Shown: one piece after another, positions 25,425-41,034 of the stretch
How positions within the stretch are numbered: the first letter of the stretch is position 1
Layout: each line of letters opens with the position of its first letter
Source of the DNA: Paracoccaceae bacterium
GTDB taxonomy: Bacteria; Pseudomonadota; Alphaproteobacteria; Rhodobacterales; Rhodobacteraceae
DNA length: 64,000 nt
Reading direction: 5' to 3'
Assembly: GCA_014762635.1 (NCBI GenBank)
Contig: JABURR010000017.1
Coordinates: 62,001 to 126,000 of the forward strand
The notes under the pieces: model-generated
Told to the model about the DNA's origin: nothing
Databases searched by the model: none
The model's input: the letters and a program-made list of their open reading frames with translations, nothing else
Program-made: the position numbers and the translations under genes

Positions 25425-26819
25425 CTAAGCGGGTTTGAACAAGCCTTCGTCCTTTACCTTGGCATAGGTTTCGTCCAGCGACTTGCGCGCCCGTTCGATC
25501 AGGGTGTCGATTTCATCCGTGCTGATCACCAGCGGCGGCGCGATGATCATGCGGTCGCCCACGTGGCGCATCACCAGGTTGTTGGCAAAGCAGCGCTCGC
25601 GGCACATCAGGCCCACGGTGCCTGCGTCCGATGCGAAGGGCTTGCGGCCTTCCTTGTCCGGGGTCATGGCGATGGAAGCCATCAGGCCGACGATCTTTGC
25701 CTCGCCCACCATGGGGTGATCGGTCAGCGCCTCCCACTTTTCCTTCAGGTAGGGGGCGGTGACCTTGCCGGCGTTCTCCACGATCTTTTCCTCGTCGAGG
25801 ATGCGCAGGTTCTCAAGCGCCACCGCGGCCGAAACCGGGTGCCCGGAATAGGTGTAGCCGTGGTTGAACTCGCTGCCCGAGATGACGCTTGCCACCTTGT
25901 CGCTGACGATGGAGCCCGCGATCGGCGCGTAGCCCGAGCTCAGGCCCTTGGCGATGGTCATGATGTCGGGCCGCCAGCCGACGGTCTGCGAGCCGAACCA
26001 CTGACCGGTGCGCCCGAAGCCGCAGATCACCTCGTCGGCGATGAACAGGATGTCATTGGCGTCGCAGATGCGCTGGATCTCGGGCCAGTAGGTTTCAGGC
26101 GGGATGATCACGCCGCCCGCGCCCTGGATCGGTTCGGCGATGAAGGCCGCGACCTTGTCCTTGCCGAGTTTCTCGATGGCCTTTTCAAGCTCGCGCGCAC
26201 GGGCGAGGCCGAATTCCTCGGGGCTCATGTCGCCACCTTCGGACCACCAGTCGGGCTGGTCGATGTGGTGAATGTCGGGGATCGGCAACCCGCCCTGGGC
26301 ATGCATGCCGGACATGCCGCCGAGGCTCGCGCCACCCATGGTGGAGCCGTGATAGCCGTTCTTGCGCGCGATGATGATCTTCTTCTCGGGCTTGCCCAGT
26401 TCGGCCCAGTAATGGCGGACCATGCGAATGTTGGTGTCATTCGCCTCGGAGCCGGAGCCTGCGAAGAACACGTGGTTCAGATCGCCCGGCGCCAGTTCCG
26501 CCAGCTTCGCGGCCAGCGCGATGGCCGGGACGTGGGTCGTCTGGAAGAAGGTGTTGTAATAGGGCAGTTCCCGCATCTGGCGGGCGGCCACGTCGGCCAG
26601 TTCGGTGCGGCCATAGCCGATGTTCACGCACCAGAGACCCGACATGCCATCAAGGATGCGGTTGCCTTCCGAGTCGTTCAGCCACACGCCCTCGGCCCGG
26701 GTGATCACCTTGGCGCCCTTCTTGGCGAGCGCATCGCCTTCGGTGAAGGGATGCATGTGGTGCGCCGCATCCAGGGCCTGGAGTTCAGCGGTCGGCAGGT
26801 GGTTGGAAATATCCTTCAT
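25425..26819 (-). CDS. spuC: Class III aminotransferase, putrescine/polyamine:pyruvate type
   Basis: 464 residues from MKDISNHLPTAELQALDAAHHMHPF. Fold-type I PLP features are the GSGSEANDTNIRM and YHGSTMGGASLGGM motifs, IADEVICGFGRTG with the PLP-ring Asp, and the Schiff-base lysine in TIAKGLSSGYAPI. The HHMHPF start and the overall pattern match SpuC/omega-amino-acid:pyruvate aminotransferases. Next to the GntR regulator and polyamine transporter, the likely substrate is putrescine or another diamine. A GntR-type palindrome lies about 150 bases upstream. Beta-alanine or taurine aminotransferase activity is an alternative. Confidence 0.85.
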   Translation of the reverse strand: MKDISNHLPTAELQALDAAHHMHPFTEGDALAKKGAKVITRAEGVWLNDSEGNRILDGMSGLWCVNIGYGRTELADVAARQMRELPYYNTFFQTTHVPAIALAAKLAELAPGDLNHVFFAGSGSEANDTNIRMVRHYWAELGKPEKKIIIARKNGYHGSTMGGASLGGMSGMHAQGGLPIPDIHHIDQPDWWSEGGDMSPEEFGLARARELEKAIEKLGKDKVAAFIAEPIQGAGGVIIPPETYWPEIQRICDANDILFIADEVICGFGRTGQWFGSQTVGWRPDIMTIAKGLSSGYAPIAGSIVSDKVASVISGSEFNHGYTYSGHPVSAAVALENLRILDEEKIVENAGKVTAPYLKEKWEALTDHPMVGEAKIVGLMASIAMTPDKEGRKPFASDAGTVGLMCRERCFANNLVMRHVGDRMIIAPPLVISTDEIDTLIERARKSLDETYAKVKDEGLFKPA

Positions 26820-26965: not shown

Positions 26966-26985
26966 CGAAATATGATCAAATTTCG
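26966..26985. promoter_or_regulatory. GntR operator-like palindrome upstream of the aminotransferase
   Basis: CGAAATATGATCAAATTTCG, a 20-base palindrome with one mismatch and a central TGATCA. The same core occurs in the regulator/potF gap and before the dehydrogenase gene. It lies about 150 bases upstream of the aminotransferase start and 30 bases past the end of the regulator gene. Confidence 0.6.
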
Positions 26986-27016
26986 AAAGTCTGTCAATCT
27001 GGCGATTTCGGAGGGA

Positions 27017-27718
27017 TCACCCCGGATCGGTCAGCGATTGCCGCACCAGATCGACCCCTTGGTGTATGTCTCCGGCGATCGCTTCGGCCACACCTTTCGC
27101 ATCGGACGCGGAAAGCGCGTCGATCGCCTCGGCATGCTTGTCGGGCAGGCGAGAGGTCCCGAAGAGGCCGCAGACCACCCGCGTGGAGGGCCCGGACCGC
27201 AGCCACAGCGACTGCGCAATCTTCTGCAGGATCGGGGTGTCCGCCGCGTCATAAAGGCAGAAATGGAAGCGGAAATTGTTCAGCAGATAGCCGTGCACAT
27301 CCCCACGCGATATGGCCGCGTTCAATTGCCGGTCGACCTCGCGCAGGGCTTCCAGTGTTTCCTGTGTGGCTTTTTGCGCTGCTTGGCGGGCCATTTCAGG
27401 CTCGATTGCCAGGCGGACGAAGGCGATTTCCTCGAGGTCGCTCAGGGTGATTTCCGGCACGCAGATGCGACGGTTCCCCATCGCCATGAGCGCGCCTTCG
27501 GCGGTGAGGCGCCGGATCGCCTCTCGCACCGGTGTGAGCCCGGCCCCAACCTTGTCTTTCAGGCCCATGATGGTGACTGGTTCCCCTGGCGCCAGGTCTC
27601 CGAACAGGATCATGTCGCGGATGCGCCGATAGATTGCCTCGTGTTCTGGGAGCTTGGATTCGGCGTACAGGTCTGCCCGGGTCTCGGGCAAAGCTTGGAT
27701 TTTCGTCGTTCCGGTCAT
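27017..27718 (-). CDS. GntR-family (FCD-type) transcriptional regulator
   Basis: 233 residues from MTGTTKIQALPETRADLY. The N-terminal winged helix reads IYRRIRDMILFGDLAPGEPVTIMGLKDKVGAGLTPVREAIRRLTAEGAL, the FadR/VanR-type pattern with TPVREA in the recognition helix. The C-terminal all-helical FCD ligand domain includes RLAIEPEMARQAA and the metal/ligand residues in NFRFHFCLYDAA and KHAEAIDAL. It sits between the aminotransferase and the divergent potF gene. Palindromes with core TTTGATCAAA in the divergent gap suggest autoregulation and control of the polyamine locus, probably as a repressor relieved by a polyamine or its breakdown product. Confidence 0.88.
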   Translation of the reverse strand: MTGTTKIQALPETRADLYAESKLPEHEAIYRRIRDMILFGDLAPGEPVTIMGLKDKVGAGLTPVREAIRRLTAEGALMAMGNRRICVPEITLSDLEEIAFVRLAIEPEMARQAAQKATQETLEALREVDRQLNAAISRGDVHGYLLNNFRFHFCLYDAADTPILQKIAQSLWLRSGPSTRVVCGLFGTSRLPDKHAEAIDALSASDAKGVAEAIAGDIHQGVDLVRQSLTDPG

Positions 27719-27732
27719 CAAGCTGCATCCAT

Positions 27733-27742
27733 TTTGATCAAA
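27733..27742. promoter_or_regulatory. GntR operator-like palindrome, regulator side of the divergent gap
   Basis: TTTGATCAAA, a perfect 10-bp palindrome 15 bases upstream of the GntR start codon, where binding would block its own transcription or translation start. Confidence 0.6.
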
Positions 27743-27792
27743 TTGTTGCCGAGCCCGGGTGGAACCAATCAATTAGTTGTCCCGAATCGAAT

Positions 27793-27802
27793 TTTGATCA
27801 AA
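27793..27802. promoter_or_regulatory. GntR operator-like palindrome upstream of potF
   Basis: TTTGATCAAA again, 60 bases centre-to-centre from the first site and about 35 bases before the potF start. The spacing is close to six helical turns, which would suit two dimers on the same DNA face. Confidence 0.62.
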
Positions 27803-27836
27803 TAGTAACTCAAATAAGTTCAACGGGAGTCTCAAG

Positions 27837-28922
27837 ATGATGATCAGAACGATTACGTTTTCGGCGATGGCCTCGGTCTTCGCACTGACCGCAGGCGCAG
27901 AGGAAGTCCGCGTCTACAACTGGTCGGACTATATCGACGAGGAGTTGCTGACCAAATTCGAGGAAGAGACCGGGATCGACCTGATCTACGACGTCTTCGA
28001 CTCGAACGAACTGCTCGAGACCAAGCTGCTGGCAGGCGGATCGGGCTATGACGTGGTTGTGCCCTCGGGTACCTTCCTGCAGCGTCAGATCGCGGCCGGC
28101 GCGTTCCAGAAGCTGGATTATTCCAAGCTTTCGAACTCCGGGAACCTCTGGGATGTGATCCAGGATCGGACCGCGCAGTACGATCCCGGCAACGAATATT
28201 CCATCAACTACATGTGGGGCACCACGGGCATCGGGGCGAACGTCGGCAAGGTGACCGAGGTCCTGGGCGACGACGCGCCCATCGACAGCCTGGAGCTTGT
28301 CTTCAACCCCGCCAACATGGAAAAGCTGGCTGAATGCGGTGTGCATTTCCTCGATGCACCGACGGAAATGATCCCCGCGGCGCTGAAGTATATCGGCGAA
28401 GACCCGGATTCGAAGGACCCCGAAGTGATCGCCAAGGCCGAGGACGTACTGATGGCGGTGCGGCCTTATGTGGTGAAGTTCCACAGCTCGGAATACATCA
28501 ACGCTCTGGCCAACGGCGATATCTGCGTGGCCTATGGCTGGTCGGGCGATATCCTGCAGTCGCGTGACCGTGCTGCCGAGGCCGACAACGGCGTCGAGGT
28601 GGTCTACAACGCGCCGAAGGAAGGCGCGCTGATGTGGTTCGACCAGATGGCGGTTCCGGTGGACGCCCCGAACCCGGAAGCCGCGCACAAGTTCCTGGAC
28701 TTCATTCTGGATGCCAACAACGCGGCCCAGGCGTCGAACTACGTCTACTACGCCAACGGCAACATCGCGTCGCAGGAGTTCCTGGTCGAGGACGTGATCG
28801 GCGATCCGGCGATCTACCCGGACGAGGCGACGCTGGAAAACCTCTACACCACCACGCCCTATGACGCGAAAGTGCAGCGCGTGGTCACCCGGCTGTGGAC
28901 CAAGGTCAAATCCGGCACCTGA
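27837..28922 (+). CDS. potF: Polyamine ABC transporter substrate-binding protein (PotF/PotD type)
   Basis: 361 residues with a signal peptide (MMIRTITFSAMASVFALTAGAEEV, cleavage near residue 21). Then comes the hallmark VRVYNWSDYIDEELLTKFEEETG, followed by GYDVVVPSG and INYMWGTTGIGAN. Late features are VAYGWSGDILQ, GALMWFDQMAVP and a tail ending VVTRLWTKVKSGT. These match the periplasmic PotF/SpuD family that binds putrescine or spermidine. Two adjacent ATGs follow GGGAG; the first is used here. A terminator-like hairpin separates it from the transporter genes, a usual device to make more binding protein than membrane parts. Confidence 0.93.
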   Translation: MMIRTITFSAMASVFALTAGAEEVRVYNWSDYIDEELLTKFEEETGIDLIYDVFDSNELLETKLLAGGSGYDVVVPSGTFLQRQIAAGAFQKLDYSKLSNSGNLWDVIQDRTAQYDPGNEYSINYMWGTTGIGANVGKVTEVLGDDAPIDSLELVFNPANMEKLAECGVHFLDAPTEMIPAALKYIGEDPDSKDPEVIAKAEDVLMAVRPYVVKFHSSEYINALANGDICVAYGWSGDILQSRDRAAEADNGVEVVYNAPKEGALMWFDQMAVPVDAPNPEAAHKFLDFILDANNAAQASNYVYYANGNIASQEFLVEDVIGDPAIYPDEATLENLYTTTPYDAKVQRVVTRLWTKVKSGT

Positions 28923-28937
28923 TACGCACAGGCATTG

Positions 28938-28972
28938 CGGCCCGCACCCCAGTGGTGCGGGCCGTTTTCTTT
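28938..28972 (+). terminator. Terminator/attenuator between potF and potG
   Basis: 11-bp inverted repeat CGGCCCGCACC / GGTGCGGGCCG with a 5-base loop, followed by TTTTCTTT. It is positioned between the binding-protein gene and the ATPase gene. It probably gives partial termination so that potF transcripts exceed potGHI transcripts. Confidence 0.82.
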
Positions 28973-28986
28973 AGACAGAGAGTTCG

Positions 28987-30114
28987 ATGTCCCAGACCAA
29001 ATTCGCCCCTTGGGTGGACCCCGACGAAAAACCGCTGATCCGGTTTCAGAACGTCACCAAGCGCTTTGGCGCGTTTACTGCCATCGAGAACCTCACGCTG
29101 GATATCTACGAGCGCGAGTTTTTTGCCCTTCTGGGGCCATCAGGCTGCGGCAAGACGACCCTGATGCGAATGCTGGCCGGGTTCGAGGCCGCAAGCGAAG
29201 GCGTCATTACCCTGAACGGGCAGGATCTTGCGCCGATCCCACCCAACAAGCGCGAAGTGAACATGATGTTCCAGTCCTACGCGCTGTTTCCGCATCTGAG
29301 CGTCTATGACAACATCGCCTTCGGACTGAAGCGATCGACCATGCCGCGTGGCGAGATCGACGCCCGGGTCCAGCAGATGCTGAAGATGGTCAAGCTCGAG
29401 AAATTCGCCCGCCGCAAGCCGCACCAGATCTCGGGCGGGCAACGGCAGCGCGTGGCCCTGGCCCGCAGCCTCGCCAAGGCGCCGAAACTGCTGCTGCTCG
29501 ATGAACCGCTGGGCGCGCTGGACAAGAAACTGCGCGAGGAAACCCAGTTCGAACTGATGGACATCCAGGAGAAGACCGGAACCACCTTCGTGATTGTCAC
29601 CCACGATCAGGAAGAGGCGATGACCGTCGCCAGCCGTGTCGCCGTGATGGACGAGGGCAGGATCATTCAGGTCGATACTCCGGACCGGATCTATGAAACC
29701 CCGAACTCGGTCTATGTCGCGGATTTCATCGGCGACGTGAACCTGATCGAGGGCACTGCCGGTGCCGCCACCGAGGGGCGCATCCCCATGTCCTGGGCCG
29801 AGGGTCAGCCCGATATCGTCTGCGCCAGCGAGGCCGAGGTCGCGGCCGGTACCCGAGTCCATTTCGCGATCCGGCCCGAGAAGGTCCGGATATCGAAGGA
29901 TAAGCCGGAGGACCTGCGCAACGCCGTGCCGGGCAGGGTGCATGACATCGGCTACCTGGGTAACATCTCGACCTATCACGTCGAACTGGCCAACGGCATG
30001 TTCATCAAGGCGCAGGTGGCCAACAGCCACCGCATCGGGCGGCGCAGCTTCACCTGGGATGACCAGGTCTGGTTGGGCTGGACCGATACCGCCGGGATGG
30101 TTCTGGACCGATGA
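28987..30114 (+). CDS. potG: Polyamine ABC transporter ATP-binding protein
   Basis: 375 residues. The ABC domain has Walker A GPSGCGKTTL near residue 50, Q-loop MFQSYALFPHLSV, signature ISGGQRQRVALARSL, Walker B LLLLDEPLGALD and the H-loop VTHDQEEAMT. A C-terminal TOBE-like regulatory domain follows (HFAIRPEKVRIS, YLGNISTYHVEL). It energises uptake through the PotH/PotI permeases. Its stop overlaps the potH start as ATGA. Confidence 0.95.
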   Translation: MSQTKFAPWVDPDEKPLIRFQNVTKRFGAFTAIENLTLDIYEREFFALLGPSGCGKTTLMRMLAGFEAASEGVITLNGQDLAPIPPNKREVNMMFQSYALFPHLSVYDNIAFGLKRSTMPRGEIDARVQQMLKMVKLEKFARRKPHQISGGQRQRVALARSLAKAPKLLLLDEPLGALDKKLREETQFELMDIQEKTGTTFVIVTHDQEEAMTVASRVAVMDEGRIIQVDTPDRIYETPNSVYVADFIGDVNLIEGTAGAATEGRIPMSWAEGQPDIVCASEAEVAAGTRVHFAIRPEKVRISKDKPEDLRNAVPGRVHDIGYLGNISTYHVELANGMFIKAQVANSHRIGRRSFTWDDQVWLGWTDTAGMVLDR

Positions 30115-31022
30115 GAGGCTGGCGCGATCGCATACGGGGATCGGCGCTTGTAGGGGTTCCCTACGTCTGGCTTCTGTTCCTGTTCCTGGTGCCCTTCGGG
30201 ATCGTCCTGAAGATCGCCGTCTCGGACACCGCGCTTGCGATCCCGCCCTACACGCCGACGCTCGACCTGTCCGAGGGTTGGGCCGGGCTGAAGGCCTTCT
30301 TCGCCGATCTGGATTTCGAGAATTTCGTCTGGCTGACCGAGGATGACCTTTATTGGAAGGCCTACCTTTCCAGCGCCAAGATCGCGCTGATCTCGACCTT
30401 CCTCGCGCTGCTGGTGGGCTACCCGATCGCCTATGCCATGGCGAGTGCGTCCGAGGAATGGCGCCCCACGCTGATGATGCTGGTGATCCTGCCGTTCTGG
30501 ACCAGCTTCCTGATCCGGGTCTACGCGTGGATCGGTATCCTGAGCCAGGAAGGCTTTCTCAACCAGTTCCTTCTGATGACCGGGCTGGTCAGCGAGCCGC
30601 TGATGCTGCTGAACTCGCCCACCGCCGTCTATATCGGCATCGTCTACACTTACCTGCCGTTCATGGTGCTGCCGATCTACGCCAGCCTCGAAAAGATGGA
30701 CATCTCGCTTGTCGAGGCCGCGACGGACCTCGGCTGCACTCGGGCCAAGGCCTTCTGGCTGGTGACCTTCCCGCTGTCGAAGCCGGGCGTGATCGCCGGC
30801 TGTTTCCTCGTCTTCATTCCGGTGATCGGCGAGTTCGTGATCCCCTCGCTTCTGGGCGGGTCGCAGACGCTGATGATCGGCAAGGTGCTGTGGGAGGAGT
30901 TCTTCTCGAACCGTGACTGGCCGGTGGCAAGCGCGGTCGCGATCATCTTGCTGCTGATCCTGGTGATCCCGATCATCCTGTTCCAGCGCAATGAGCAGAA
31001 CCAGCGGGAGGCCGAGCAATGA
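30111..31022 (+). CDS. potH: Polyamine ABC transporter permease
   Basis: 303 residues with six predicted membrane helices, the first at about residues 13-35 (LVGVPYVWLLFLFLVPFGIVL). The EAA coupling-loop motif is EAATDLGCTRAKAFWLVTFPLSKPGV near residue 205, which contacts the ATPase. The N-terminal periplasmic loop with LYWKAYLSSAKIALIST is typical of PotB/PotH. Overlaps potG and potI by four bases each. Confidence 0.94.
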   Translation: MRGWRDRIRGSALVGVPYVWLLFLFLVPFGIVLKIAVSDTALAIPPYTPTLDLSEGWAGLKAFFADLDFENFVWLTEDDLYWKAYLSSAKIALISTFLALLVGYPIAYAMASASEEWRPTLMMLVILPFWTSFLIRVYAWIGILSQEGFLNQFLLMTGLVSEPLMLLNSPTAVYIGIVYTYLPFMVLPIYASLEKMDISLVEAATDLGCTRAKAFWLVTFPLSKPGVIAGCFLVFIPVIGEFVIPSLLGGSQTLMIGKVLWEEFFSNRDWPVASAVAIILLLILVIPIILFQRNEQNQREAEQ

Positions 31023-31834
31023 GGCGGATGACCTGGTTCAATGCGACCTCGCTGACGCTGGGCTTTGCCTTCCTCTACCTGCCGATCCTGCTGCTGGTGA
31101 TCTACAGCTTCAACTCGTCCAAGCTGGTCACGGTCTGGGCCGGGTTCTCGACCAAGTGGTATGGCGAGTTGTTCCAGAACGAGGCCTTCCTCGATGCCGC
31201 GTGGGTGACCCTGCAGGTGGGGGTTCTGTCCTCCACGCTGGCGACGATCCTCGGCACGATGGCGGCCTATGTGATGGTGCGCGGTGGGCGGTTCTTCGGG
31301 CGGACGCTGTTTTCGGGGATGATCTACGCGCCGCTCGTCATGCCCGAGGTGATCACCGGCCTGTCTTTGCTGCTTCTGTTCATCTCCATCGGCCTTGACC
31401 GGGGGATCGTGACCATCGTGCTGGCCCATACGACCTTCTCGATGTGCTTCGTGTCGGTCGTGGTCAGTTCCCGGCTGGTGAGCTTCGACCGCTCCGTCGA
31501 GGAGGCGGCGCTGGACCTTGGCTGCACGCCCTTCGACGCGTTCCGCAGCGTGACCCTGCCGATCATCATGCCCGCTGTGGCCTCGGGCTGGCTGCTGGCC
31601 TTCACCCTGTCGCTTGATGATCTGGTGATCGCGTCGTTCACCGCCGGTCCCTCGGCCACGACGCTGCCGATGAAGATCTTCAGTTCGGTTCGACTGGGCG
31701 TCAGCCCCGAGATCAACGCGCTGTCGACGATCCTGATCGGGCTGGTGGCCATCGGGGTGATCACCGCCTCGCTGACCTCCAAGCGCATGATCTCCAAGCG
31801 GGCGCGCGAGGAAAAGGCCGCCGTGGCCGGATGA
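31019..31834 (+). CDS. potI: Polyamine ABC transporter permease
   Basis: 271 residues with six predicted membrane helices. Features are FAFLYLPILLLVIYSFNSSKLVTVWAGFSTKWYGEL at the N-terminus, as in PotC/PotI, and the EAA loop EEAALDLGCTPFDAFRSVTLPIIMP near residue 160. It is the second channel-forming subunit. The oxidase gene follows after 37 bases on the same strand. Confidence 0.94.
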   Translation: MRRMTWFNATSLTLGFAFLYLPILLLVIYSFNSSKLVTVWAGFSTKWYGELFQNEAFLDAAWVTLQVGVLSSTLATILGTMAAYVMVRGGRFFGRTLFSGMIYAPLVMPEVITGLSLLLLFISIGLDRGIVTIVLAHTTFSMCFVSVVVSSRLVSFDRSVEEAALDLGCTPFDAFRSVTLPIIMPAVASGWLLAFTLSLDDLVIASFTAGPSATTLPMKIFSSVRLGVSPEINALSTILIGLVAIGVITASLTSKRMISKRAREEKAAVAG

Positions 31835-31871
31835 TCTGCGGGACGTTTCAAGACCGCCGGGAGGGGTGCGC

Positions 31872-33206
31872 ATGAAGCGCCTCTACGAGCCCTTCGCCTA
31901 TGGGCAGGAGCCGATCGCGCAGAGCTTCTGGCGTGAAAGCGTCACCTTGCCGGAGCCTTGCCCGGCGGTTTCGGGCGAGGTCACCTGTGACACCGCCATC
32001 ATCGGCGCGGGCTTCACCGGGCTCAATGCCGCGCTGAAACTGGCCGAGGCGGGGGAGGATGTGGTTGTCCTCGACGCCCAGCAACCCGGCTGGGGTGCCT
32101 CGGGCCGCAACGGCGGGTTCTGCTGCCTGGGTGGGGCGAAGCTGGACCCGGCGGCGATACGGCGGCGCTTTGGGGAGGAGGCCGCGCGCACCTATGCGCG
32201 GGCCGAGAGGCAGGCGGTCGATCACGTCCGCGATCTGCTCGACCGGCACCGGATCGAAGCTGACACCCATTCACGGGGCGAGACCCTTCTGGCCCACCGC
32301 CCGAAGGCGGTCGCAGAGCTGAAGGCGCGCGGGGAAGAGGTCGCTCGTATCCACGGGCTGGACTGCGCATTCCTGTCGAAGGAAGAATTGCCGGAGCACG
32401 GCATGGCCAGCCCCGAGTTCCACGCGGCTCTGACCACCCCGATCGGCTTTGCGCTGAACCCGATGAAATACGTCCTTGGTCTGGCGGCGGTCGCCCGTGA
32501 CGCTGGCGCGCGTCTCTTCGGCGACAGCCCGGTCGAGCGGATCAGCGCGGCCGCAGATGGCCGCCACCTGCTGCACACGCCATCGGGCCAGATGCGCGCC
32601 AGGCGCTTCGTGATCGCGACCAACGGCTACAGTTCCGAGGACGTGCCGCGCTGGATGGCCGGGCGTTACCTTCCGGTGCAGTCGAGCATCCTGGCCTCCC
32701 GCGTCCTCACCCCCGAAGAGCGCGCGGCCCAGGGTTGGACCACCGCGCAGATGTGCTACGACAGCCGCAACCTGCTGCATTATTTCCGGCTGCTGCCCGA
32801 CGGTCGGATGCTTTTCGGGATGCGCGGCAGTACCCGGTCCCGGGTTGCGGATCACGAACGGGTTCGCACAAGGATGCGCGCCGATTTCGAGCGCTTCTTC
32901 CCCGCCTGGCGCGATGTGGAGACGCCGCATTTCTGGTCGGGCTTCGTCTGCCTCAGCCGCGACCTGACCCCCTTTGTCGGGGCGATCCCGGGCAGTGACG
33001 GGGGCTATGCCGCCTTCGCCTATCACGGCAACGGCGTCGCCATGGGCAGCTACGCCGGGGTGCGGCTGGCCGAGATGATGTTGGGGCAGGGCGACCCGCT
33101 ACCTGCCGTCATGACCACGCCGCCGCGCCGGTTCGAACTTGGTCCCCTGCGCCGGGCCGTCCTGCCGCTGGCCTATGCCTGGTACGGGCTGCAGGACCGG
33201 AGCTAG
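31872..33206 (+). CDS. FAD-dependent amine oxidase, PuuB-like (gamma-glutamylputrescine oxidase type)
   Basis: 444 residues from MKRLYEPFAYGQEPIAQSFW, with a GGGAGGGG site before the ATG. The FAD-binding DTAIIGAGFTGLNAALKLAEAG and the covalent-flavin-class context GWGASGRNGGFC are followed by a C-terminal YAFAYHGNGVAMGSYAG-type DAO motif (here GGYAAFAYHGNG). The pattern is that of the DAO/PuuB family that oxidises gamma-glutamylputrescine or other secondary amines. Position behind potFGHI supports a polyamine role. No PuuA (glutamine-synthetase-like ligase) is in the window, so the exact pathway is unproven. Confidence 0.82.
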   Translation: MKRLYEPFAYGQEPIAQSFWRESVTLPEPCPAVSGEVTCDTAIIGAGFTGLNAALKLAEAGEDVVVLDAQQPGWGASGRNGGFCCLGGAKLDPAAIRRRFGEEAARTYARAERQAVDHVRDLLDRHRIEADTHSRGETLLAHRPKAVAELKARGEEVARIHGLDCAFLSKEELPEHGMASPEFHAALTTPIGFALNPMKYVLGLAAVARDAGARLFGDSPVERISAAADGRHLLHTPSGQMRARRFVIATNGYSSEDVPRWMAGRYLPVQSSILASRVLTPEERAAQGWTTAQMCYDSRNLLHYFRLLPDGRMLFGMRGSTRSRVADHERVRTRMRADFERFFPAWRDVETPHFWSGFVCLSRDLTPFVGAIPGSDGGYAAFAYHGNGVAMGSYAGVRLAEMMLGQGDPLPAVMTTPPRRFELGPLRRAVLPLAYAWYGLQDRS

Positions 33207-33292
33207 ACCTGTGAATGACCCCGGGCGCCGGTTCTTCGCGGCGCAAATGCGCGCACGGACATGCAAAGAGGTTGATTTCACCGGGCGTGACG

Positions 33293-33318
33293 GCAATTAA
33301 TTTGATCAAATTAATTGC
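33293..33318. promoter_or_regulatory. Long perfect palindrome upstream of the dehydrogenase gene
   Basis: A 26-bp perfect palindrome: arm GCAATTAATTTGA followed directly by its reverse complement, with the shared TTTGATCAAA core at 33301-33310. It sits 36 bases before the start codon at 33354. Its AT-rich arms contrast with the surrounding sequence. Probably the strongest GntR operator of the set. Confidence 0.68.
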
Positions 33319-33353: not shown

Positions 33354-35813
33354 ATGACCGACACGTTTCCGAGCCATGCCCAGGCGGTGATCATTGGTGG
33401 TGGGTCGATCGGCTGCAACCTGGCCTATCACCTCACCAAGCTCGGCATGACCGACGTGGTGGTGCTCGAGCGTGACAAGCTGACCTCGGGCACCACCTGG
33501 CATGCGGCGGGCGAGATCGTTCCGGCGGTCCTCGGCAATGAATGGGAGTGTGAATTCTACACCTATGGCCGCAACCTCATTGCAGGCCTCGAGGAAGAAA
33601 CCGGCCAGGCCACCGGCTGGCGGCGCCCGGGCTATATCCAGCCCGCCGACACGCCCGACCGGGTCGAGGAGATGCGCCGTGGGGCCGCCTTCATGAACCG
33701 CTTCGGCATCGAGGTGCACGAGATATCCCCCGCCGAGGCCGCCGAGCGCTTTCCGATCGGGGATTTCTCCAAGACCCTCGCCGCCTTCTGGTATCCGCTC
33801 GAGGGACGCACCAATCCCGTAGACACGACGATGGCGCTGGCCCGGGGCGCGCGCAGCCGCGGCGCCCGTATCATCGAGGATACCAGCGTTGAGGCCATCC
33901 TGACCCGCAATGGTACGGCGGTCGGCGTGCGCACCGACAAGGGCGAGATCCAGGCCGAGCACGTTGTGATCTGCGCCGGTATGTGGTCGCGCCAGATCGG
34001 CGCCACGGTGGGCATCAACCTGCCGCTGCAGGCCGCCGAGCATTACTACCTCATCACCGAGCCGATGGAGGGCATCCACCGCGACCTGCCGCTGGTGGAG
34101 GATCCGCACAGCTGGGCCTATTTCCGCGAAGAGGTGGGCGGGCTGCTGGTCGGCCTGTTCGAGCCCGATGGCGCGGTCTGGAACCTCGACGAGATCCCGC
34201 AGAACTTCTCGTTCGGGGAGATCGAGCCGGATTGGGACCGCATGGCCCCGCACCTGGAGCGCGCATTCGAGCGTGTTCCCGCCGCCGCCAACGCGGGCCT
34301 GCGCAAGTTCTTCTGCGGGCCGGAAAGCTTCACCCCCGACCTCGCGCCGCTGGTGGGGCAGGCGCCGTCGCTGCGCAACTGCTGGGTGGCGGCGGGGCTG
34401 AACTCGCTGGGCATCCTCAACGGGCCCGGCATCGGCATGGCGCTGGCCCATTGGATCGTCGAGGGGCATTGCCCGGTCGACAACACCAGCTTCAACGTGG
34501 AGCGGTTCGCCGATGGCAGCCACAACACCCCGGCCTTCCGTAGCGCCCGGACCCCGGAACTTCTGGCCAAGAGCTTCGGCGCGCATTTCCCCAACGAGAG
34601 CTTCAAGAGCGCCCGCGGCCTGAAACAGTCGGTCCTCTATGACCGGCTCAAGGCCGCCGGGGCCTATTTCAGCGAAGGCTCGGGTTGGGAACAGCCCGAC
34701 TGGTTCGCGCCCAGCCCCGAACAGGCGAAGATCGAAGCCTATAGCTGGGGCCGCCAGAACTGGTGGGACTGGCACGCCGAGGAACACCGCGCCGCGCGCG
34801 AGGACGTGATCGTGATGGACATGTCCTCCATGGCGAAGTTCCAGGTCGAAGGGCCGGACGCCTGCGCGCTTCTGAGCCGCGTGAGCTGTAACGACGTGGA
34901 CGTGGAACCCGGCCGCGTGGTCTACACCGCCTGGACGAACGAGACCGGCGGGTTCGAGGCCGATCTGACCGTCACGCGGCTGGCGGCGGACAAGTTCCTG
35001 GTGGTGGTGGGCGAGAACAGCGCCGGCCACACCGAGACCTGGATGCGCCGCAACCTCCGCGCGGGCGAATTCGTCACCATCACCGATATCACCGCCGGGA
35101 TCACCCAGATCAACGTGCATGGCCCCAAGGCCCGCGAGTTGATGCAGCGCGTCAGTTCGGCGGACCTGTCGAACGAGGCTTTCCCCTTCATGTCCGCACA
35201 GGACATCGACGTGGGCTTCTTCAAGGTGCTGGCCCTGCGGGTGACCTTCATTGGCGAACTGGGGTGGGAGTTGAACGTCCCGGCGATCCACGCGGTGCAG
35301 GTCTATGACCTTCTGATGGAGCAGGGGAAGGATCTTGGTGTCCGGAACGCTGGGATGCAGACGCTGAATTCACTGCGGCTTGAGAAGGCCTATCGCGACT
35401 TCGGCATCGACGTGGACAATACCGACAACCCGATCGAGGCGGGGCTGGGCTTTGCCGTGAAGCTCGACAAGCCCGGCGGCTTCATTGGCCGCGACGCGCT
35501 TGCCGCGATCAAGGAGCAGGGCGTGCCAAAGAACCGGATGCTCCAGTTTCTGCTGAACGACCCCGCGCCGCTGCTCTATGGCAACGAGCTGATCTACCTG
35601 GACGGCGAAGCGGTGGGGCACATGCAGGTTGGCGGATACGGCCACACGCTGGGCGGCGCAGTCGGGATCGGCTTTGCCGAACTGGACGAGCCGCTGACCG
35701 CGAAAAGGGTCGAGGCGGGCACCTGGGAAGTCCTCGTCGCGGGCACGCGCTACCCGGCCACGGCCTCGCTCAAGCCGCTCTTCGATCCGACGATGGGGCG
35801 TGTCCGGTCCTAG
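33354..35813 (+). CDS. FAD-dependent oxidoreductase/GcvT fusion (dimethylglycine/sarcosine dehydrogenase-like)
   Basis: 819 residues from MTDTFPSHAQAVIIGGGSIG. The N-terminal 400 residues are a DAO-type FAD domain with VIIGGGSIGCNLAYHLTKLG, then LTSGTTWHAAGEI, whose His is the site of covalent FAD attachment in this family. The C-terminal half is a GcvT/aminomethyltransferase folate domain (EDVIVMDMSSMAKFQVEGPDA, FIGELGWELNVP, MLQFLLNDPAPLLYGNEL). Such fusions demethylate dimethylglycine or sarcosine, loading the methyl group on tetrahydrofolate. A perfect GntR-type palindrome upstream ties it to the polyamine locus, so an N-methylated amine is a possible substrate. Confidence 0.88.
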   Translation: MTDTFPSHAQAVIIGGGSIGCNLAYHLTKLGMTDVVVLERDKLTSGTTWHAAGEIVPAVLGNEWECEFYTYGRNLIAGLEEETGQATGWRRPGYIQPADTPDRVEEMRRGAAFMNRFGIEVHEISPAEAAERFPIGDFSKTLAAFWYPLEGRTNPVDTTMALARGARSRGARIIEDTSVEAILTRNGTAVGVRTDKGEIQAEHVVICAGMWSRQIGATVGINLPLQAAEHYYLITEPMEGIHRDLPLVEDPHSWAYFREEVGGLLVGLFEPDGAVWNLDEIPQNFSFGEIEPDWDRMAPHLERAFERVPAAANAGLRKFFCGPESFTPDLAPLVGQAPSLRNCWVAAGLNSLGILNGPGIGMALAHWIVEGHCPVDNTSFNVERFADGSHNTPAFRSARTPELLAKSFGAHFPNESFKSARGLKQSVLYDRLKAAGAYFSEGSGWEQPDWFAPSPEQAKIEAYSWGRQNWWDWHAEEHRAAREDVIVMDMSSMAKFQVEGPDACALLSRVSCNDVDVEPGRVVYTAWTNETGGFEADLTVTRLAADKFLVVVGENSAGHTETWMRRNLRAGEFVTITDITAGITQINVHGPKARELMQRVSSADLSNEAFPFMSAQDIDVGFFKVLALRVTFIGELGWELNVPAIHAVQVYDLLMEQGKDLGVRNAGMQTLNSLRLEKAYRDFGIDVDNTDNPIEAGLGFAVKLDKPGGFIGRDALAAIKEQGVPKNRMLQFLLNDPAPLLYGNELIYLDGEAVGHMQVGGYGHTLGGAVGIGFAELDEPLTAKRVEAGTWEVLVAGTRYPATASLKPLFDPTMGRVRS

Positions 35814-39686: not shown

Positions 39687-40760
39687 TCAAGCTCGGCGAT
39701 ATTGGTAGTCCGCTTCCACGTCGGACTCACTCTCGAGCAGGCGGTCCAGGGCGGCGCGGCCCTCGCTCTTGTGGCAGACCGGATCCGGTGCCTTGGGGTC
39801 TCCCAGGATGGCCATGGCCTGGCAGCGGCATCCGCCAAAGTCGATGTCGCGCCGATCGCAGGAGCGACAAAGGTCGGGCATCCAATCCGTGCCGCGATAT
39901 GCGTTGAACGCGGGGCTGTTGTGCCAGATCTCGGCAAGTGGTGTTTCGACGGCGTTCTGGAACTCAAGGCCCGGGATCGTGGCTGCGGCGTGGCAGGGCA
40001 GTACGGTTCCGTCCGGCGCCACGTTGAGCCCGGTCGATCCCCAGCCGCTCATGCAGGGTTTCGGAAAGTCCGAGTAGTAGTCGGGCGGCACGAAATCGAT
40101 GACCAGTTGCCCTTTGAGCCGTGCCTCGGCTTCTCTCACCACGTCTTTCGCACGCTCGACCTGTGCGCGGGAGGGTTGAAGCCGCGCGCGGTTGACCAGG
40201 GCCCAGCCCTGAAACTGTACGCAGGCGATCTCGATGCGGCGCGCGCCGAGGCGGACAGCCATGTCTATGGTTTCGGGAAGATCATCCAGGTTGTCCCGGT
40301 GCATCACGGCGTTCAATGTCAGCGGGAAGCCGATTCCGGATATGTGCTCGGCCACATGCATCTTGCGTTTGAAGCCGCCGTTGTAGCCGCCGATCCGGTC
40401 GGCGACCTCGGCCGAAACGCCCTGTACCGAAAGTTGAACATGATCCAGACCAGCTTCGTCGAGTTCCCGCAAGCGCCGCTCGGTCAGTCCAATGCCCGAC
40501 GTGATCAGATTGGTATAGAGACCCGCTTCCCGTGCCGCGACCACGAGATCGATGAGGTCACTGCGCGCGGCGGGTTCCCCGCCCGACAGGTGGAGCTGCA
40601 GGACGCCCAGATCCGCGGCGCTGTGGAAGATGCCGGACCATGTGGCGGTGTCGAGTTCCTGTCCCTTGGCCACCAGGTCCGTCGGGTTGGAGCAATAGGG
40701 GCAGGCGAGGGGGCAGCGATGGGTGACTTCGGCGAGCATCGCCATGGGGGGGTTAGCCAT
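39687..40760 (-). CDS. pqqE: PqqA peptide cyclase, radical SAM enzyme
   Basis: 357 residues from MANPPMAMLAEVTHRC. The radical-SAM cluster motif is RCPLACPYCSNP (CxxxCxxC), followed by HLSGGEPAAR. The C-terminal SPASM auxiliary clusters are indicated by CMSGWG, LPCHAAATIPG and CRSCDRRDIDFGGCRCQA. PqqE forms the Glu-Tyr carbon-carbon crosslink in PqqA with PqqD as chaperone. Start overlaps pqqD by eight bases. Last gene of pqqABCDE. Confidence 0.97.
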   Translation of the reverse strand: MANPPMAMLAEVTHRCPLACPYCSNPTDLVAKGQELDTATWSGIFHSAADLGVLQLHLSGGEPAARSDLIDLVVAAREAGLYTNLITSGIGLTERRLRELDEAGLDHVQLSVQGVSAEVADRIGGYNGGFKRKMHVAEHISGIGFPLTLNAVMHRDNLDDLPETIDMAVRLGARRIEIACVQFQGWALVNRARLQPSRAQVERAKDVVREAEARLKGQLVIDFVPPDYYSDFPKPCMSGWGSTGLNVAPDGTVLPCHAAATIPGLEFQNAVETPLAEIWHNSPAFNAYRGTDWMPDLCRSCDRRDIDFGGCRCQAMAILGDPKAPDPVCHKSEGRAALDRLLESESDVEADYQYRRA

Positions 40761-41034
40761 CGCGCAACTCCAGCAGCCGTTTTTCCGCGAGGTCTTCAAG
40801 GTAGGAGATCACGTCGGGCTCGATCACGTCTCGTGGCGCGGCGAAGGTCTCTGCCAGACGATCACAGATTTCAGCGATATTCGCGGTCCCGTCCACGCGC
40901 GACAGGATCGCCGATCCGATCTGATCAATCATCAGAACCCGCTCCGGCCCCAACAAGACGTCCGTGTCCCGTACGCGGTCATAATGGCAACGAACGCCCC
41001 GGGGCAGCGTCGGGATGGCGGTCGGGGCAATCAC
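40753..41034 (-). CDS. pqqD: PQQ biosynthesis peptide chaperone
   Basis: 93 residues from a GTG that overlaps the pqqC stop as GTGA. It is an RRE-fold protein with PTLPRGVRCHYDRVRD, VLLGPERVLMIDQIGSAILSRVDG and the C-terminal helix EPDVISYLEDLAEKRLLEL. It binds the PqqA peptide and presents it to PqqE. Length is normal for PqqD. Confidence 0.94.
   Translation of the reverse strand: MIAPTAIPTLPRGVRCHYDRVRDTDVLLGPERVLMIDQIGSAILSRVDGTANIAEICDRLAETFAAPRDVIEPDVISYLEDLAEKRLLELRDG

Follow-up and report, generated by a model that had tools for sequence, protein, structure and literature searches.

A conserved GATC-centred palindrome as the probable operator of an FCD-type GntR regulator at a polyamine transport locus of a Paracoccaceae bacterium

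The window analysed here is a stretch of 64,000 nucleotides from the genome of a Paracoccaceae bacterium (assembly GCA_014762635.1, contig JABURR010000017.1, positions 62,001 to 126,000), and it carries a gntR gene between a class-III aminotransferase gene and a Pot-like polyamine transport operon. Our analysis indicates that the palindrome TTTGATCAAA is very probably the operator of the FCD-type GntR regulator encoded at 27017-27718. What is read directly from the genomes compared is where the sites lie, that they are conserved around gntR and that they occur together with the GntR protein. The first-pass annotation of this DNA had placed a shared palindrome before the aminotransferase gene, at two points in the gap between gntR and potF, and before a folate-linked dehydrogenase gene, and had interpreted the four as a polyamine-locus regulon. 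All four were found, three as exact TTTGATCAAA and one as TATGATCAAA (O1 to O4 in Table 1), and the operator and regulon interpretation is supported by the comparisons below.

In the genome of 3,550,994 bases (98 contigs, 95.93% complete), exact TTTGATCAAA occurs seven times, and three of these copies lie within 5.6 kb at this locus. WWWGATCWWW is present at 37 places genome-wide, seven of which are TTTGATCAAA, whereas the seven other A/T-flanked GATC palindromes together occupy three places (AATGATCATT two, ATTGATCAAT one). With the other four copies taken as the background rate, the Poisson probability of at least three copies in 5,578 bp is about 4e-8, for an interval that was picked post hoc. 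Among the remaining exact copies, C12:76615 has crtI- and bchI-like genes on either side, C52:119820 precedes an RND-like gene (all these gene names assigned by eye from translations), and C28:31282 lies within a reading frame. An additional TATGATCAAA stands at C19:16273, likewise without a polyamine gene. These four copies were considered as regulon sites and rejected; there is no evident polyamine gene near any of them, so they were treated as probably due to chance.

Further evidence comes from the orthologous loci. We examined the best 80 of at least 577 relatives and accepted a flanking copy if it differed at no more than one position, kept the GATC unchanged and lay no farther than 300 bp from the 3' end of gntR or 400 bp from its 5' end. 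A copy was present on the aminotransferase (3') side in 76 of the 80 loci and on the 5' side in 75; both sides carried one in 72, at least one side in 79, and neither in a single locus, L185, whose single copy is about 4.3 kb from gntR. Of the exact TTTGATCAAA copies in these loci, 65 lay no more than 400 bp from gntR and six lay elsewhere; the corresponding counts for the seven sister palindromes, taken together, were one and three. A second set of 40 loci of 20 kb mostly repeated this layout, but the two sets share loci and are thus not independent, L178 and G163 having contigs of equal length and almost identical match positions. No aminotransferase-side copy was seen in L098 and L111. In L110, gntR is apart from the locus and the sites remain between potF and the aminotransferase gene. 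The palindromes are therefore conserved and are not at random frequency, which is the opposite of what the first-pass annotation had said would refute it.

The word also follows the regulator between genomes. With orthologues called at E ≤1.6e-53 and identity of at least 43%, below which there is a gap in the match list, GntR was found in 94 of 198 family genomes (own included). The 12-mer ATTTGATCAAAT was present in 78 of these 94 genomes versus 24 of the 104 without an orthologue (Fisher p 6e-18, kinship ignored), with mean copy numbers per genome of 2.05 and 0.40, respectively. The single control palindrome, TATTGATCAATA, was found in 10/94 and 12/104 genomes. As a separate observation, G090, G171, G127, G109 and G008 have no GntR orthologue, yet each holds three or four copies of ATTTGATCAAAT, perhaps owing to base composition, to contigs that are missing or to a different regulator.

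The site before the dehydrogenase gene is a more complicated case. Among 13 dehydrogenase orthologues including our own (69-100% identity), the operator word was exact in our genome (-53) and in G100 (-38) and had one mismatch in G047 (-35); a G031 homologue of 49% identity has a copy or near-copy at -30. The site could be a chance copy with no regulatory link, since it is missing in 10 of the 13 orthologues and other exact copies (C28, C52, C12) lack an evident polyamine link, but we consider this unlikely. It is a perfect 26-bp palindrome, G100, G047 and G031 have a copy or near-copy close to the start, and a second exact TTTGATCAAA is located in our genome 53 bp before a cupin gene, the same distance as at the dehydrogenase. 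The cupin and OYE-type oxidoreductase genes (C19:191375) and a second FAD-GcvT gene (FAD, flavin adenine dinucleotide) are on the same contig, about 96 kb from the dehydrogenase gene. In relatives (L269, L270, L277, L278) the dehydrogenase, the cupin, OYE-type oxidoreductases and a Pot-like transporter occur together in varying combinations. As these genes form one module there, the second exact copy strengthens the dehydrogenase link in our genome. The link to polyamine uptake proposed by the first-pass annotation nevertheless needs to be qualified, as most orthologues lack the site. The cupin site is not conserved either; no copy (≤1 mismatch) was seen just before the cupin gene in the loci of relatives examined, and the cupin itself was found in 6 of 197 other genomes (E 1e-30). 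The GntR orthologue was found in 12 of the 13 dehydrogenase-orthologue genomes versus 94/198 overall (p 7e-4, kinship ignored).

In the relatives, the module appears to have another regulator. A BetI-like box, TGAAT-N3/4-ATTCA, precedes eight of the 12 other orthologues in a pattern search, and by eye there are variants in G024 and G129, a weak one in G062 and none in G064. A TetR regulator was found in 14 of the 198 genomes: G031, G174 and every one of the 12 other genomes with a dehydrogenase orthologue. This regulator resembles BetI (TIGR03384, 112.2 bits), and because its scores lie under the cutoffs (112.2 of 201.3; 112.1 of 118), we call it BetI-like. It was not found in our genome at E 1e-50, which at 96% completeness is not proof of absence, and the strict box TTGAATGNNCATTCA was not found there with up to one mismatch. 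Our dehydrogenase falls beside those of G070 and G047 in the protein tree, and BetI-like boxes are present in both of these. The recurring combination of a Pot-like ABC transporter (ABC, ATP-binding cassette), an OYE-type oxidoreductase and a BetI-like regulator, in some cases with a cupin and the folate-linked dehydrogenase, was also noticed in L269, L270, L273 and L278.

The simplest reading of this pattern would be that the BetI-like regulator was lost and the polyamine operator took over, so that the same GntR probably also controls the dehydrogenase (33354) and the cupin/OYE genes in this genome, the two halves of what is one module under a BetI-like TetR regulator in relatives. A fuller version is possible, although we hold it tentatively: a module for the demethylation of N-methyl-amines, made up of the folate-linked dehydrogenase, the OYE-type oxidoreductases and the cupin, may have lost its BetI-like repressor and boxes, split in two and gained the GntR operator at both halves, with G100, G047 and G031, which have both kinds of box, resembling intermediates. 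In its boldest form, the module would demethylate N-methylated polyamines or diamines, and uptake, demethylation and breakdown would be one induced pathway. A homarine or trimethylamine pathway was considered for the identity of the module, and nothing decisive was found among the matches listed or in the available passages of PMC13390433.

The promoter of the aminotransferase gene gives an indication of how the operator may act. In a survey of 81 loci (own included), 78 had a site on the aminotransferase side. Of these 78 loci, 68 have TTTGATCATA as their promoter-proximal site, and the altered half makes CATATT. The single mismatch that had been recorded at O1 does not mark a weak copy, as the TATGATCAAA form is shared by these 68 loci. 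A -35-like TTGAC lies at most 30 nt upstream of the site in 57 of the 78, and its distance is nearly fixed, as in 46 of them it begins 14 nt ahead of the site; as controls, TTGAC was found downstream of the site in 5/78 and its reverse complement upstream in 2/78. At the commonest distance, CATATT would follow a spacer of 14 nt and TATTCT one of 16 nt, which leaves more than one possible register for the -10 box. The aminotransferase operator seems to overlap the -10 region, and this overlap with a -10-like box behind TTGAC suggests repression, since an operator over the -10 box is in the position typical of repression. The conserved mismatch would let a single sequence serve both the polymerase and the repressor. 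On the other (5') side of gntR, the upstream signal is a weaker TTGCC.

It might be argued that GntR activates transcription from these sites or has a dual role there. On the aminotransferase side, 17 cases have another site at a distance of 28 or 29 bp, and the aligned upstream copies of these pairs are followed by a -35-like TTGAA; a second class, with a distance of 38-39 bp, comprises eight cases. The promoter-proximal copy nevertheless covers the -10-like box, and we judge an activating or dual role quite improbable. Paired copies on this side were noted in L147, L169-L171, L177, L179, L184, L197, L198, L205, L208 and others. Under repression, the GntR dimer would most likely sit on or beside the promoters of the aminotransferase gene, gntR and the potFGHI-DAO operon, and a polyamine or a breakdown product would bind the FCD domain and release GntR from the DNA. 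That GntR binds these sites directly, represses rather than activates, regulates its own gene and responds to a polyamine-related inducer is our inference from the sequence.

The gntR product has both domains expected of such a regulator, a GntR winged-helix domain (PF00392, 49.6 bits, cutoff 27) and an FCD ligand-binding domain (PF07729, 72.7 bits, cutoff 24.3). Its predicted structure has a mean predicted local distance difference test (pLDDT) score of 89.2, and its closest solved relative, matched over the full length, is McbR/YncC of Escherichia coli (PDB 4p9f), which also consists of a GntR helix-turn-helix and an FCD domain (Z 25.7, root-mean-square deviation 1.6 Å over 209 residues, 25% identity). 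The top NCBIfam match is the GntR-family model PRK11414, and its score of 90.2 is below the cutoff of 225, so the protein is not an equivalog. The consensus of 185 sites is AATTTGATCAAATT, an extended form of TTTGATCAAA in which the core was fixed by design, because only sites with an unchanged GATC and no more than one mismatch were selected. Separately, TTTGTGATCACG was seen at L280:6350-6404, before the closest GntR paralogue (C21, 34% identity), with different flanks; it may serve as operator for a sister regulator that shares the GATC core.

To look at the wider regulon, 40 stretches around other ATTTGATCAAAT copies in relatives were chosen by hand among the matches listed, 38 of them from orthologue-bearing genomes. 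In 13 of the 40, the site is close to the start of a glutamine-synthetase gene. When aldehyde dehydrogenase, glutamine amidotransferase (GATase), class-III aminotransferase and arginase-family genes are added, the total reaches 24, a raw count that comes from clusters and from family scans of representatives only. Moreover, all 12 loci in which more than 1.4 kb separates gntR from the aminotransferase gene have a glutamine-synthetase-type gene in between. The wider regulon looks like gamma-glutamyl-polyamine catabolism; the single synthetase scanned scored 173.5 against the gamma-glutamylputrescine synthetase cutoff of 650, far below it. Our genome has a glutamine synthetase homologue at C95:11587-12882, with 62% identity to the commonest extra target in relatives.

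Several observations weigh against the enrichment of the word, against TTTGATCAAA as the operator of this GntR or against the extent of its regulon. With up to two mismatches allowed, the word is not enriched in the window (11 seen versus 13.04 from shuffles); the enrichment there resides in exact and near-exact copies. Exact ATTTGATCAAAT is missing in 16 of the 94 genomes with an orthologue, and 12 of the 24 orthologue-free genomes that hold it have at least two copies. In 15 or 16 of the 40 chosen stretches no named target family was seen, no copy with up to two mismatches stands before our own glutamine synthetase homologue, and the dehydrogenase operator is missing in the orthologues mentioned above. 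The core, G-AT-C, does not match the GT-N2/3-AC consensus of the FadR subfamily in the available passages of PMC4494728. This last point and the 24/104 orthologue-free genomes would also fit another, unlinked regulator of polyamine genes that owns the palindromes and has gntR merely as one target, which we hold to be very improbable, because the word follows the GntR orthologue (78/94 versus 24/104) and the sites are kept at gntR even where potF was not found beside it (e.g., L170, L171, L177, L179, L184, L197, L205 and L208).

The features of the locus are collected in Table 1. We take the aminotransferase to be a SpuC-like polyamine aminotransferase candidate. The transporter resembles the Pot polyamine type; the ATPase passed the PotA-type family score, and the best hits of PotF, PotH and PotI did not reach the equivalog cutoffs, so these proteins are named Pot-like. 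In the potF/potG gap (28938-28964), TTTTCTTT follows a GC-rich stem of 11 bp whose loop measures 5 nt. This hairpin resembles a partial terminator, which would favour the binding protein over the remaining operon. Further downstream, a radical-SAM-like protein, PqqE-like by eye, is encoded at 39687-40799.

Table 1. Genes, candidate operators and putative promoter of the gntR locus (positions in the window)
Feature	Position	Strand	Basis or remark
Class-III aminotransferase	25425..26819	-	PF00202 306 bits; PRK07480 770 bits, cutoff 510; alternative upstream start 26912
Putative aminotransferase promoter	26969..26997	-	TTGACA 26992-26997, 17 nt, CATATT 26969-26974
O1, candidate operator TATGATCAAA (1 mismatch)	26971-26980	.	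overlaps -10-like box of aminotransferase promoter
gntR, FCD-type GntR regulator, 233 aa	27017..27718	-	PF00392 and PF07729 above cut-off
O2, candidate operator, exact TTTGATCAAA	27733-27742	.	14 nt before gntR start codon; autoregulation candidate
O3, candidate operator, exact TTTGATCAAA	27793-27802	.	34 nt before potF start codon
potF-like substrate-binding protein	27837..28922	+	PRK10682 PotF 428.6 bits, under equivalog cutoff 636
potG/potA-like ATPase	28987..30114	+	TIGR01187 398.9 bits, above cutoff 355.6
potH-like permease	30111..31022	+	PRK10683 373.6 bits, under cutoff 489
potI-like permease	31019..31834	+	PRK10592 330.3 bits, under cutoff 476
FAD-dependent amine/amino-acid oxidoreductase (DAO)	31866..33206	+	PF01266 191.5 bits
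O4, candidate operator, exact TTTGATCAAA, core 33301-33310	33293-33318	.	perfect 26-bp palindrome before dehydrogenase
FAD + GcvT folate-linked dehydrogenase, dimethylglycine/sarcosine dehydrogenase-like	33354..35813	+	PF01266, PF16350, PF01571, PF08669

Neither the regulator family nor the kind of regulon is new. A literature search on the word TTTGATCAAA gave no title on a GntR or polyamine operator among the matches listed, with RegPrecise, bioRxiv and most subscription papers lying outside the search, and no description of a polyamine GntR regulator was found among the literature matches listed or in the available passages of PMC4344238 and PMC5343134. These results offer a precise candidate operator for a regulator present in about half of the sampled family genomes (94/198), next to a transporter type whose polyamine use has been verified by mutation in Ruegeria pomeroyi (PMC10130141, available passages). 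If this is true, the polyamine use of these bacteria would become more readable from genomes and transcriptomes. The dehydrogenase case, in turn, looks like a catabolic module passing between two unrelated repressors, with apparent intermediates.

Operators of FadR-subfamily GntR regulators, as described in the passages of PMC4494728 available, are likewise A/T-rich palindromes, and double sites in a divergon each lie near their own gene and may each serve the nearer one. The distances of O2 and O3 from the start codons of gntR and potF fit this divergon rule. The subfamily operators follow TKGT-N2/3-ACMA, whereas the core here is TTGATCAA, and the canonical box TKGT-N1..3-ACMA was found in the locus gaps of only 2 of 80 loci. 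The conserved word is TTTGATCAAA, and it is not assignable to the subfamily consensus; it departs from this consensus as do a few others named in that source, BioR and NanR being the other exceptions.

The regulated transport of polyamines has parallels in other proteobacteria. PuuR is an XRE/cupin-type repressor and differs in this from the regulator described here, an FCD-type GntR protein with another operator. In the Puu putrescine utilisation system (puuABCD, as listed in the available passages of PMC8437039), a regulator also stands over putrescine uptake and gamma-glutamyl-polyamine catabolism genes. ArgR likewise controls potFGHI, and hence putrescine transport, in some proteobacteria; it belongs to a different regulator family, and no GntR polyamine regulon is mentioned in the available passages of PMC5343134. 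The available passages of PMC10130141 name no regulator or operator for potFGHI (SPO3466-3469) of Ruegeria pomeroyi DSS-3, in which a potFGHI (SPO3469) mutant was impaired with putrescine, cadaverine and spermidine. This transporter is of the same type as that of the locus studied here, and we infer that the two are orthologous.

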